64,000 bases of DNA from Streptococcus suis (GTDB lineage Bacteria > Bacillota > Bacilli > Lactobacillales > Streptococcaceae). The stretch is taken from assembly GCF_002960445.1 (NCBI RefSeq), contig NZ_POJD01000358.1:62001-126000 (forward strand), given 5' to 3'. Shown one piece after another: positions 39,595 to 43,193 of the stretch. The position numbers and the translations under genes were made by a program. The notes under the pieces are model-generated. The model was not told the origin of the DNA and made no database searches. It saw only the letters and a program-made list of their open reading frames with translations. Within the stretch, counting starts at the first letter, position 1. Every line of letters starts with the position of its first letter.

Positions 39595-39618
39595 GAGAAG
39601 AAAGTTGGAGGTTCTGTG

Positions 39619-40428
39619 ATGAAATTGACTATGAAATATATAAGATGTTTGGGATTATCTACCTTCATGTTGGTCAGCTTACTAGCCTGTTCTAGCCAGA
39701 CTAGGTTTGTAGATACTACCTCTTCAACTACTAGCAGTTCTACTAAAATCAGTTCCTCAACCAGCACTTCAACGAACTCGACCAGCTCATCAACCACAAG
39801 TTCAACGACAAGTTCAGCGACAAGCACCAGTCCTAGTAGCAGCTTAGTTACTGAAAGCTCTAGTCAAACCCAAACCAGTCAATCTGAGGAAAGTAGTCAA
39901 GCAGCTCCTCCTAGCCAATCCACTCTTCACCCCAATTATCAAGCAATCTTAAATACCTATAGCAAGTGGATAAGAGTGTTGAGAAGTGGCGGAACCTTTG
40001 ATGATCCGACGGTGGAAGAGGGCTACCTAAAAAATATCGACCCCTCTGTTGCATTTTATTATGCCTTACACGATATTGATGGAAATGGTCAGTTAGAACT
40101 CTTACTTGCGACTGGTGGAGAGCAGATGTTTGTCTTTTCTATCTGGGGAAATGAAACCTACCCAACTCGCTTGGTTTCTTCCGAAAATGTTCGAGTATAT
40201 GTAGATGTTTTTGATAATGGTCTAATCAGCAGCTTCTTTTTAGACGGCTATCGACCAGAAAGTCATGGAACCATCTATCGCTTGGCTACTGATGGAAGTC
40301 AGGCCTATACTGTTGGCACTTTTCGCTTAGATGCTCAAACAGGTCAAGTTACTTCTGATGGACCAGAAGTCCTGCCAGATAGGAATACGGCTATTCAAGA
40401 TGTTTTGGATTGGCAATTATTGCAATAA
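39619..40428 (+). CDS. Lipoprotein with Ser/Thr-rich spacer
   Basis: 269 residues from the ATG at 39619 (GGAGG 7 bases upstream). Lipobox L-L-A-C near residue 25, then about 70 residues almost only Ser and Thr, which would act as a wall-spanning, possibly glycosylated stalk. The globular part (about 105-269) contains a FYYALHDIDGNGQLELLL segment resembling a calcium-binding DxDxNG loop. Surface-exposed, of unknown ligand. A similar Ser-rich stalk is used by the FMN-binding protein downstream. Confidence 0.75.
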   Translation: MKLTMKYIRCLGLSTFMLVSLLACSSQTRFVDTTSSTTSSSTKISSSTSTSTNSTSSSTTSSTTSSATSTSPSSSLVTESSSQTQTSQSEESSQAAPPSQSTLHPNYQAILNTYSKWIRVLRSGGTFDDPTVEEGYLKNIDPSVAFYYALHDIDGNGQLELLLATGGEQMFVFSIWGNETYPTRLVSSENVRVYVDVFDNGLISSFFLDGYRPESHGTIYRLATDGSQAYTVGTFRLDAQTGQVTSDGPEVLPDRNTAIQDVLDWQLLQ

Positions 40429-40512: not shown

Positions 40513-40542
40513 TTGCCTTTCCAACTTTTAGCATGCTATAAT
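40513..40542 (+). promoter_or_regulatory. Promoter of the flavin/NOX operon
   Basis: TTGCCT (40513-40518), 18-base spacer, extended -10 TGCTATAAT (TATAAT 40537-40542). A second TATAAT lies at 40493-40498. Confidence 0.65.
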
Positions 40543-40602
40543 TGGAAATCACTATTTGAAAATTTATTGAAAATAGTATTCTTACATAGAATTGAGGAAA
40601 TC

Positions 40603-41088
40603 ATGAAGAAAAAATTAACAGCAGCTCTTATCGCCCTTCTAGCCTTGGCCGCAGCAGCCTATAACGCTTTCTTGCTCTTTTTCCAGACGGATACAGCAAC
40701 AGAAACCACTACCAGCAGCTCTAGTCAGCTTGCAAGTAGCTCTAGTCAAGTCAGCTCAAGCAGTCAAGCAGCAGGGACAAGTGAAGCAAGCTCTAGCCAA
40801 TCCACAGGCTTGACAGATGGTACCTATACAGGTGCAGTAACATCAACCAACCGCGGTGACTACCAGGTGCAATTAACTGTTTCAGGCGGAAATATCAGCG
40901 ACGTAACTATCTTGCAGTATCCAAATGATAACCCTGAATCGCAAGAAATCAATGACGGTGCCCTACCGACCTATATTGCAGAAGCTATTTCCAATCAATC
41001 AGCTCAAGTCAACCAGATTTCAGGAGCAACTGAAGCCTATAAAGGTTTTACAGGTTCCTTGCAAGATGCCCTTCACCAAGCCTCATGA
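40603..41088 (+). CDS. Membrane-anchored FMN-binding (flavinylated) protein
   Basis: 161 residues from the ATG at 40603 with GAGGA upstream; an in-frame upstream start at 40498 lies in the promoter. N-terminal helix (about 6-27) without a lipobox cysteine, a Ser/Thr-rich stalk (about 34-68) and an FMN_bind domain (70-158). The S-G-A-T143 motif in NQISGATEAYKGF is the site where ApbE attaches FMN to threonine through a phosphoester. The flavin would therefore sit outside the membrane at the end of a flexible stalk. apbE overlaps its stop codon. Confidence 0.85.
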   Translation: MKKKLTAALIALLALAAAAYNAFLLFFQTDTATETTTSSSSQLASSSSQVSSSSQAAGTSEASSSQSTGLTDGTYTGAVTSTNRGDYQVQLTVSGGNISDVTILQYPNDNPESQEINDGALPTYIAEAISNQSAQVNQISGATEAYKGFTGSLQDALHQAS

Positions 41089-41843
41089 AAAAAATCATCA
41101 ACAGGACAGTTGAGGCGATGACCCTGCCCTTTACCATTAGTCTGGCAACAGCCCAAGCAAGCCAATTGGAAGATGAGTTGGAAAGTCTAAGTTTGGAAAT
41201 ACTGGCTGAGCTAGAACGCTTGGAAGAAAAATTTTCAGCCTTTCGTCCAAGTTCCTTGGTATGTCGTTTTCAAGACGGAGATAGGTCAGTTTTGTTAGAC
41301 CAGGAATTTCAGGAAGTCTTTTCCCTAGCAGAAATGGCTCATCAAGAAACAGACGGTGCCTTTGACCCCTACTATAAAGGGAGCTATGATCCAACTGGTC
41401 TGGTCAAGGGCTGGGTGATTGAAAAAATCTTTCAAAATAAACTCCTATCCTACCTTCAACACCCCGATGTTGAAGCAGTTTGCTTAAATGGGGGAGGAGA
41501 TATGCAGTTCGCTACCAAGGAAGCAAGTAGTTTCGTCTGGAAGATTGGCATTGAAAATCCTGATAATCTACAGGAAATCCTTGCCGTATTTACAGCCAAG
41601 AATGGAGCAATTGCCACATCTGGCTACAGCAAGCGAGGACAGCATATCCAATCCAAGAATGACCTCCAACAAATAACCTTTATGGACACCAGTCTGACAA
41701 GAGCAGATGTCTGGGCCACAGCTGGATTAAGTATGCCAGAAAATACATTGCTTGATGCTATTGCCCATCACCAACTTAGTGGCTTGTATATCAAGCCGCA
41801 ACAGCTACATTTTTTTCAAAAAGGAGAATTAGTGCGTGATTAA
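41085..41843 (+). CDS. apbE: FAD:protein FMN transferase ApbE
   Basis: 252 residues, shorter than the usual 300 or more, and without an obvious signal peptide or lipobox, so the active site may face the cytosol or the export route is not visible. Family motifs present: DPTGLVKGWVIEKI, NGGGDMQF and ATSGYSKRGQHI, plus TSLTRADVWATA with the metal-binding Asp. Transfers FMN from FAD to a threonine of its target, clearly the protein encoded just upstream (ATGA overlap). Followed by the NOX-type reductase with an 8-base overlap. Confidence 0.9.
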   Translation: MKKIINRTVEAMTLPFTISLATAQASQLEDELESLSLEILAELERLEEKFSAFRPSSLVCRFQDGDRSVLLDQEFQEVFSLAEMAHQETDGAFDPYYKGSYDPTGLVKGWVIEKIFQNKLLSYLQHPDVEAVCLNGGGDMQFATKEASSFVWKIGIENPDNLQEILAVFTAKNGAIATSGYSKRGQHIQSKNDLQQITFMDTSLTRADVWATAGLSMPENTLLDAIAHHQLSGLYIKPQQLHFFQKGELVRD

Positions 41844-43122
41844 GAAAAATAACTATGCTTTAGGATTGGCCTGGATGGTGGCTTTATTCATCCTACCCTT
41901 TCCATTTATTTATACCTTCGTAACTGGTCTACCGGCAGGTTTTGGTCAAATGAAGGTCAGCATCGCCTTGGGTATCGTGGCTTATGTCTGGATGCTCTTA
42001 GCGATTTACATTGGAACCAAACCTAAGTGGCTAGATCGGTTGATTGGCCTGCCAGCAGCCTATATGATTCACGGCATTCTTAGCCTGGTGGCCATATACT
42101 TCTCCTTCATGCATAAGAACCTGTTACCATCTTATGGCTTGATTGAGCAGACTGGTAATATCGCCTTTCTCATCTTCCTGTCCTTAGCCATTTATTCAAT
42201 GGTCTTCATGGCGGGTTGGTTAACATCTAGAATTCGTTTCCTTGCCACTCTAAAACGTAAATTGGAAACAACTTTCAAGCACGAAGTATCTGTATGGCTC
42301 CATCGCTTGAACTTGTTGGCGACCTTTTTGATTTTTGTCCATGTTCAGTTGATTGATTATATTCGGGCAAATACTAGCTTTATGGCGGTCTTCTACTTAG
42401 CTTCTGGCTTTGTATTCCTGTCATATCTCTGGGCCAAATTCAAGCCAAATGCAAAAGGCTACACGGCTAAATTAGTCGAAAATCGTGAAATTGCTGACAA
42501 TATTCACGAATTACAAATTCAATTACCTAAAGGCAAGGCTACTAAATTGAGAGCGGGTGACTTCGTCTTTATCTCCTTCCCAGGTGTTAAGGGCTTGGCT
42601 GAGCCCCATCCCTTCTCCCTTGTAAATGCCCCTGATGCACATGATCAGATTACACTGGCTATTCGTGGAGATGGGGACTTTACCCGTACCTTACAAACTG
42701 TTGCAGCTCCAGCTCGTATTCGAGTGGACGGTGGCTACGGTATGTTCCAAACGGTAGTAGAAGATCAGCAACCCAAAAATATTATCATGATTTCAGGTGG
42801 TATTGGTATTACACCTTTGTTGTCGCTAATTGATAAGTTCCCAACAATTGATACAACAGTCTTTCATGGTGCAACTACTGAAGCGGCCCTGATTTATGAA
42901 GAAAAATTCAAATCCTGGGAAGCCGAGAGAGAGAATTTCAAGGCAGTCCGAAAAATCGGTGCCTTTGAAGAAGCAGAAGTTTTGTCCGCATTGCCTCATG
43001 ACTTTGATGACTTGACAGTCTTAGTGTCAGGCCCACCAGTCATGGCTCGTTATTGGATCAAGACCTTGGCAAAAAATGGGGTTCCAAAAACACAAATTTT
43101 CTATGAGGAATTTGGTTGGTAA
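41836..43122 (+). CDS. NOX/ferric-reductase-type transmembrane flavocytochrome
   Basis: 428 residues, GTG start behind AAGGAG. Six-helix ferric reductase domain (about 8-205) with the two histidine pairs that hold stacked b haems: H79/H93 in one helix and H156/H169 in another, spacings 14 and 13. Then an FAD domain (HPFSLVNAP near residue 256) and an NAD(P)H domain (ISGGIGITPLLSL, VSGPPVMARYW, C-terminal EEFGW). Same architecture as the bacterial NADPH oxidase SpNOX. Carries electrons from NAD(P)H to the outer face, probably to the flavinylated partner; oxygen is an alternative acceptor. Confidence 0.88.
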   Translation: MIKKNNYALGLAWMVALFILPFPFIYTFVTGLPAGFGQMKVSIALGIVAYVWMLLAIYIGTKPKWLDRLIGLPAAYMIHGILSLVAIYFSFMHKNLLPSYGLIEQTGNIAFLIFLSLAIYSMVFMAGWLTSRIRFLATLKRKLETTFKHEVSVWLHRLNLLATFLIFVHVQLIDYIRANTSFMAVFYLASGFVFLSYLWAKFKPNAKGYTAKLVENREIADNIHELQIQLPKGKATKLRAGDFVFISFPGVKGLAEPHPFSLVNAPDAHDQITLAIRGDGDFTRTLQTVAAPARIRVDGGYGMFQTVVEDQQPKNIIMISGGIGITPLLSLIDKFPTIDTTVFHGATTEAALIYEEKFKSWEAERENFKAVRKIGAFEEAEVLSALPHDFDDLTVLVSGPPVMARYWIKTLAKNGVPKTQIFYEEFGW

Positions 43123-43161
43123 GTTTATCTTGCCTTCTCATTAGAAAGTCTTATATATTGT

Positions 43162-43193
43162 AAAGTCGGTTTCTCAAGGGAACTGACTTTTTT
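43162..43193 (+). terminator. Terminator of the flavin/NOX operon
   Basis: AAAGTCGGTT (43162-43171) with AACTGACTTT (43181-43190), then T-rich sequence. Confidence 0.75.

Follow-up and report, generated by a model that had tools for sequence, protein, structure and literature searches.

How does a flavin come to sit on the outside of a Gram-positive cell when the enzyme expected to attach it has no export signal? The question is raised by a three-gene locus of Streptococcus suis, which lies in the 64,000-nucleotide stretch of contig NZ_POJD01000358.1 (assembly GCF_002960445.1, 500 contigs) that we analysed and call the window. Its genes encode a membrane-anchored stalk protein with a domain for flavin mononucleotide (FMN), a short flavin transferase of the ApbE family, and a flavocytochrome of the NADPH oxidase (NOX) type. 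Extracytosolic flavoproteins are thought to be made outside the cell by a secreted ApbE that uses exported flavin adenine dinucleotide (FAD). We consider it fairly likely that the locus would instead form an outward electron relay in which the short ApbE attaches FMN to the stalk protein in the cytosol and the product is then exported. An earlier note on this DNA had proposed a relay; its NOX core, its cassette and its conservation are borne out below, while attachment of FMN inside the cell is a step that it never proposed.

The genes overlap by 4 bases (ATGA, stalk protein and ApbE) and by 8 bases (ApbE and flavocytochrome) in the list of open reading frames (ORFs). These overlaps, as well as all the motif positions named before, were confirmed on the ORFs (Table 1). 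Pfam scans matched the stalk protein to PF04205 (30.4 bits, cut-off 22) and the ApbE to PF02424 (84.6 bits), upholding the suggested pairing of a flavinylated stalk with its transferase as an FMN_bind/ApbE cassette; the flavocytochrome matched PF08022, PF00175 (29.9 bits, cut-off 22) and PF00970 above their cut-offs. The S-G-A-T flavinylation motif is present at residues 140–143, but the Asp usually found three residues before the motif Ser is replaced by N137. The window's stalk protein was aligned with 12 relatives. Among 76 stalk relatives the motif reads SGAT in 66 and SGAS in 10, and the Asp is kept in 14 and lost in 62. Replacement of this Asp has been reported with minor effects, and SGAS and Asp loss both fall within the tolerance of ApbE, according to the part of PMC12052999 used here.

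Next, the short ApbE served as query in a scan of 84,980 species, one genome from each. Of 584 matches, the 80 best became the named loci (L numbers; genomes have G numbers), to which all counts out of 80 refer. Using our own profile hidden Markov models (HMMs), we found all three genes in 75 of the 80 loci, with some genes broken; the loci short of the full triad were L100, L132, L154, L155 and L156. Because the loci were retrieved by ApbE alone and 75 of them hold all three genes, the linkage is not due to chance. The hosts belong to the Lactobacillales and Actinomycetota and include Streptococcus, Lactococcus, many Lactobacillaceae, Gemella, Aerococcus, Enterococcus, Bifidobacterium, Microbacterium and Streptomyces. 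Most Lactobacillales and Bifidobacterium loci have the order FMN_bind–ApbE–NOX, and the Microbacterium and Streptomyces loci have the order NOX–FMN_bind–ApbE. A second short ApbE copy lies near the first in L115, L127, L147 and L154, and no second FMN_bind gene was found there with our HMM. Within Streptococcus, where the earlier note had wanted conservation of the triplet checked, the flavocytochrome is present at full length and at least 48% identity in 20 of 197 genomes (with an internal stop in G052 and G194). The cassette, FMN_bind gene plus short ApbE, lies directly upstream of it in 15 of these 20 (the ApbE of L015 is broken), and in G122 an FMN_bind gene of stalk-protein size is found on a separate contig.

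The flavocytochrome had been described as having the architecture of SpNOX, the bacterial NADPH oxidase. Both sequence and predicted fold support a NOX-type core, but not orthology. By sequence, the best Protein Data Bank (PDB) match was SpNOX (8qt6, E 1.3e-17). The AlphaFold2 model (pLDDT 91) contains a membrane helical core and an FNR-type dehydrogenase domain, and its top Foldseek match was again 8qt6 (E 5.1e-21, TM 0.77/0.83). The four haem His did not vary in an alignment of 43 flavocytochromes that included SpNOX-type rows and one Microbacterium row. The window protein has in common with SpNOX (PDB 8qt6, 8qq7) the fold, the bis-His haem pairs and the FAD and NAD(P)H motifs, but in the structural alignment the two are 21–22% identical. 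SpNOX-type proteins were detected at E 1e-60 or better in 47 of the 197 Streptococcus genomes, and no genome among the 197 holds both kinds of flavocytochrome (Fisher p 0.005, kinship uncorrected); in the window's own genome the SpNOX-type query gave no match at E 1e-60. The window flavocytochrome is a member of a subfamily separate from SpNOX, not an orthologue of it. PF01794, by which Meheust et al. define MsrQ-like proteins, had no match at E 1 in the window flavocytochrome or in Bifidobacterium L146, and scored 34.1 bits in the SpNOX-type protein of L031, 54 and 51 in actinobacterial L157 and L166, and 16.4 in the relative L103 (cut-off 28).

Two other forms of the flavocytochrome were seen. 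A relative that is 32–33% identical occurs in L027 (1480–4238, minus strand, G026) and L029 (G010), preceded by two exported-looking flavodoxin proteins, one a lipoprotein and one with a Ser/Thr stalk; the L027 proteins match Flavodoxin_4 at 71 and 96 bits in a Pfam scan. It is possible that in these loci a NOX works with an external flavodoxin that replaces the FMN_bind protein. In one Streptococcus metagenome-assembled genome, a 205-residue protein that resembles only the membrane half of the flavocytochrome is encoded directly downstream of the triad (L105, 6110–6727); it has no Pfam match, and a similar protein of 200 residues occurs in another genome (L030).

The S. suis type has the cassette upstream, whereas of the 47 Streptococcus genomes with SpNOX-type genes, 44 show no FMN_bind match adjoining these. 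The other three are G020, G040 and G090, and G040 also holds a second SpNOX without an FMN_bind neighbour. In L106, L107 and L109–L111, a gene for a SpNOX-type protein of 398 residues precedes FMN_bind–ApbE; the hosts are S. cristatus DD08, Streptococcus sp. DD10, DD12 and DD13, and S. loxodontisalivarius. The SpNOX-type copy that was tested (L031, genome G090) matches 8qt6 at E 3.8e-146. In a quick tree, the ApbEs of this SpNOX set (four rows) formed one clade (SH-aLRT 99), nested with lower support (91, 87) among streptococcal ApbEs that have the S. suis-type partner. Because the clade sits among these ApbEs, a single exchange of the NOX partner would be the simplest reading. Both SpNOX structure papers, in the parts used here, leave the physiological role open. 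One allows acceptors other than O2; the other, PMC11564096, proposes a protein acceptor, the extracellular haem side being exposed, and does not exclude that O2 is not what SpNOX naturally reduces. The FMN_bind protein is thus a candidate acceptor partner of SpNOX-type enzymes.

The flavocytochrome could also be chiefly a superoxide-making oxidase, with the FMN protein as a side branch or flavin store. SpNOX makes superoxide in vitro, and its fold is shared by the window protein; the many SpNOX genes that stand without an FMN_bind neighbour, including the second copy of G040, fit such a role. Furthermore, the flavocytochrome itself lacks an adjoining cassette in 4 of the 20 streptococci (L019, L022, L023 and L024). 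The genomes of these loci hold no FMN_bind match in frame of stalk-protein size, and the gap in L019 retains a relic of the ApbE end; beside the lone flavocytochromes stands a gene which, from its protein letters, we take to be ffh-like. Because these four keep the flavocytochrome without the cassette, it can probably act without it, which counts against the relay. A mainly superoxide-making role is nevertheless unlikely, since the cassette is linked to the flavocytochrome in 75 of the 80 loci and the authors of a SpNOX structure cannot exclude a natural acceptor other than O2 and suggest a protein (PMC11564096, in the part used).

We then examined the short ApbE. Its AlphaFold2 model (pLDDT 95, pTM 0.91) has its first strand from residue 3, and Foldseek matches 1–39 were all ApbE/Ftp/FmnB structures (6nxi, E 5.5e-13). 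In 52 aligned sequences H187 and D208 were invariant and S179 was conserved in at least 90%, and by alignment the window ApbE, which is 89% identical to the ApbE of S. suis strain DE406T, appears to retain the published catalytic Ser/His/Asp set. The short ApbEs formed one clade of 58 rows with support 100 in a quick tree that omitted 23 near-duplicate, broken or incomplete rows; six lipoprotein-type rows and a long signal-less ApbE from the window's genome fell outside it. In a set of 77 short ApbEs that includes the one from the window, the first conserved strand is preceded by 0 to 37 residues (median 11), and none has a hydrophobic N terminus, the highest KD15 value among the 16 with at least 15 leading residues being 1.02; L119, L132, L134 and L155 (broken, incomplete or with an unresolved start) were dropped from this count. 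Thirty long, high-scoring ApbEs served as secreted controls: 22 exceed 1.8 over a 15-residue hydropathy stretch, and 7 more, for which too late a start codon had been taken, show a lipobox; L083 was misread. The short length and the missing signal are therefore conserved marks of one ApbE clade and no anomaly of the window's genome. The earlier note had listed both features as unexplained; both are real, but they are not an oddity of this locus.

The second ApbE of the window's genome (L001, 1471–2499, contig C474) is long and has no signal, and the gene before it presumably encodes a DHH-type phosphoesterase, judging by its letters. An ApbE of some kind was found in 193 of the 197 Streptococcus genomes. 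An S. suis apbE mutant studied for anti-phagocytosis (PMC4891806, as far as that paper was available) was not used: its forward primer, with up to 3 mismatches allowed, finds no site in the window's genome, and the peptide that it encodes, as translated by eye, is not the beginning of either ApbE there. A Bifidobacterium breve apbE mutant is sensitive to ferrous-iron chelators according to the available part of PMC5449479; the ApbE concerned may belong to the short type or to another.

Where the short ApbE and its substrate reside was approached through Cys content and through the FAD supply. The Cys sample comprised Lactobacillales and Bifidobacterium loci, with identical sequences taken once. 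Gram-positive exported proteins are low in Cys, and a Ser/Thr/Ala-rich linker is likewise a mark of export. We found 2 Cys in 6,725 residues of stalk linker plus domain (58 sequences), and 68 in 15,994 residues of short ApbE (0.43%, 63 sequences). The controls, which calibrate the Cys rule for this comparison, gave 0 in 9,247 residues of secreted ApbE domains (30 sequences) and 31 in 7,914 residues of long signal-less ApbEs (26 sequences); L079, L083 and L092 were omitted from the former set, and L190 (secreted) and L196 (misread) from the latter.

An extracytosolic ApbE requires exported FAD, and in Listeria the substrate subunit of the exporter is the product of eetB (PF07456), as stated in the part of PMC9973259 used here. 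In Streptococcus, eetB occurs in 34 of the 197 genomes, exactly those in which the top ApbE match belongs to the high-scoring long type (E 7.2e-85 or better), and in 0 of the 163 others; 30 of the 34 ApbEs were read, and 29 have a signal or lipobox. The window's genome (G000) has no match to eetB (PF07456). Among 19 Streptococcus genomes that hold the triad, whole or split, 2 carry eetB (G117 and G122), and both also have a high-scoring ApbE. We extended the comparison to 48 genomes behind the named short-ApbE loci, 46 of which hold all three genes in the locus: eetB was above cut-off in 4, two weaker matches fell below it, and 44 were counted as without. The lipobox ApbEs among 30 long ApbEs fetched from the 48 genomes (L185, L186, L187 and L190) come from the same four eetB genomes; in this set L196 was misread, and in L199 the hydrophobic stretch lies wholly before the first Met. 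Short ApbEs were the only kind detected in 10 of the 48 genomes (G217, G218 with two copies, G219, G221, G222, G225, G228, G229, G230 and G239; G244 has a second ApbE and is not counted). Weissella paramesenteroides, Schleiferilactobacillus harbinensis and Lentilactobacillus parabuchneri are among the species concerned. Together, the Cys, FAD-exporter and ApbE-type comparisons suggest that the short ApbE would be inside the cell and its substrate outside, and because the signal-less short ApbE marks a clade, FMN would be attached inside.

The relay could also run as proposed with ApbE working outside, after a non-classical exit and on scavenged or leaked FAD. ApbEs of extracytosolic systems are described as secreted, and some release on lysis could occur. 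This account is improbable, however, in view of a Cys content typical of the cytosol (0 in the secreted ApbEs), the lack of a hydrophobic N terminus in all 77 short ApbEs and the rarity of eetB above cut-off.

The stalk proteins have a Ser/Thr/Ala-rich linker with a median of 44 residues. Positive charge is greater before than after the hydrophobic core in 66 of 73 (5 tie and 2 are opposite), a count that excludes 3 of the 76 without a hydrophobic core (L104 and L144, cut or broken, and L164, start uncertain). Because of this pattern, together with the MKKK before the anchor of the window protein, the positive-inside rule predicts an N-in, C-out anchor. Were the FMN_bind domain instead cytosolic, anchored at the inner face as an internal partner of the dehydrogenase domain, the location puzzle would vanish and the apparently cytosolic nature of its dedicated ApbE would be expected; but the predicted C-out topology, the near absence of Cys and the linker are all marks of export, and we give this arrangement little credence.

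From gene order, conservation, motifs, predicted folds and comparative patterns, we infer the electron steps, the flavinylation, its place and the export route as follows. The flavocytochrome would take electrons from NAD(P)H and pass them by way of FAD to the inner and then the outer haem, as its fold and invariant ligands suggest. The exposed outer haem would hand them to covalent FMN on the stalk protein outside, a step to which the gene linkage in many species points. The short ApbE would draw on cytosolic FAD to attach this FMN inside the cell, either ahead of Sec export of the stalk protein or while it is under way, as several comparative features suggest, so that no FAD exporter would be needed. 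Flavinylation followed by export is possible, because the Sec system of Escherichia coli can transport carrier domains that have already been modified in the cytosol (PMC3418276, in the part used). The outer flavin would then reduce an acceptor that is small or exchangeable; a guess would be ferric iron or a quinone, and oxygen or a protein is possible.

Several points weigh against this course of events. Only 18 residues separate T143 from the C terminus; the polypeptide would have to be complete by the time FMN is added, and this is hard to square with co-translational insertion of the N-terminal anchor. The long signal-less ApbE of the window's genome could flavinylate the stalk protein instead. 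Hydropathy was the criterion for export signals, and a script picked the start codons; the Streptococcus and 48-genome samples overlap, their rows are related, and the counts are not corrected for kinship. The match between eetB and lipoprotein ApbE is partly one of co-inheritance, often within one locus, although the absence of eetB from most triad genomes is independent of this joint inheritance. Finally, the flanking genes give no acceptor in a Pfam scan of 52 ORFs chosen from 124, suspected two-component genes included, so that the following counts are not frequencies: HisKA/HATPase domains in 4, response regulators in 3 and one Nramp transporter among the 25 commonest of 77 families, which are otherwise diverse. 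Two-component-like sensor and/or regulator genes lie near the triad in L121, L145, L157, L159 and L166, all from distant hosts.

We compared the locus with known systems, each cited for the part of the source used. With the MsrQ-like clusters of Meheust et al. 2021 (PMC8238504) it has in common an apbE, an FMN_bind gene, a bis-haem membrane protein and an NAD-binding domain, and the same proposed route from NAD(P)H to extracytosolic FMN, but the window flavocytochrome lacks the PF01794 match and the window ApbE lacks a signal. These clusters are broad in Actinobacteria and infrequent elsewhere; genes without a signal or lipid site were removed in that study when extracytosolic flavinylation was counted, and the parts covered here do not treat signal-less ApbE in MsrQ-like clusters. 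The triad works like an MsrQ-like cluster and is not filed as one by the PF01794 definition. It is very improbable that the locus is just another copy of such a cluster, with the missing signal an annotation detail of no functional meaning: PMC8238504 does describe apbE, FMN_bind and two-haem six-helix protein clusters, often with PF00175, but the missing signal is clade-wide and goes together with a cytosolic Cys content and, in most genomes, with the absence of eetB, and PF01794 is not matched.

The extracellular electron transfer system of Listeria (PplA/FmnB/EetB-FmnA, PMC9973259) likewise has an external FMN_bind protein and a dedicated ApbE-family transferase; its FmnB, however, is extracytosolic and needs exported FAD, whereas here there is no signal and usually no eetB. 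The cytosolic ApbE of Klebsiella (cited in PMC12052999) also lacks a signal, but its substrate is a soluble fumarate reductase, whereas the substrate here is membrane-anchored with features of an exported protein. The section of PMC12052999 covered names cytosolic ApbEs only with fumarate reductase substrates. A search of the open-licence literature found neither flavinylation ahead of export nor a link between SpNOX and ApbE described, and Hajjar 2017 makes no mention of an operon, genomic context, FMN or ApbE. What is known, then, is a cluster type (MsrQ-like, in the part of PMC8238504 used) whose Pfam definition misses the window flavocytochrome. Two findings are new as far as the open-licence literature shows: members of one ApbE clade consistently lack a signal, which bears on whether flavinylation or export comes first, and the cassette is also linked to SpNOX-type genes.

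Features of the locus are collected in Table 1. Directly upstream of the triad (39616–40428), a lipoprotein-like protein of 270 residues with a long Ser/Thr stalk is encoded, which has no Pfam match.

Table 1. Genes and motifs of the three-gene locus, in positions of the window.
Feature	Position	Strand	Remarks
FMN_bind stalk protein, 161 residues	40603–41088	+	ATG start; anchor, Ser/Thr-rich linker, FMN_bind domain; PF04205
Hydrophobic anchor of stalk protein, residues 5–27	40615–40683	+	MKKK before it; from sequence
Flavinylation motif S140-G-A-T143 of stalk protein	41020–41031	+	T143 is the expected FMN site; from sequence
Short ApbE flavin transferase, 252 residues	41085–41843	+	ATG start; PF02424; no export signal
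ApbE active-site Ser179, His187, Asp208	41619–41708	+	Predicted by sequence correspondence to V. cholerae Ser241/His257/Asp285 (PMC12052999, part used)
NOX-type flavocytochrome, 428 residues	41836–43122	+	GTG start; FAD/NAD(P)H dehydrogenase domain
Haem ligands H79, H93, H156, H169 of flavocytochrome	42070–42342	+	Invariant, n = 43
FAD motif HPFS, residues 258–261 of flavocytochrome	42607–42618	+	From sequence; invariant
Pyridine nucleotide motif GGIGITP, residues 321–327 of flavocytochrome	42796–42816	+	From sequence; G322, G324 and P327 invariant

A signal-less ApbE paired with an exported-looking substrate, mostly without an FAD exporter and sometimes without any other ApbE, suggests an order of events different from the accepted one. 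Taken to the level of the family, the proposal would be that the short-ApbE clade of Lactobacillales and Actinomycetota, together with NOX-type flavocytochromes, flavinylates an exported protein before Sec export, as a second and exporter-free route, and that the cassette is a natural partner of SpNOX-type oxidases, so that bacterial NOX enzymes would, at least partly, be reductases of an external covalent flavin and not oxidases; we regard the chances of this wider proposal as evenly balanced. The link of the cassette to SpNOX-type genes provides a concrete acceptor candidate for a structurally solved bacterial NADPH oxidase.

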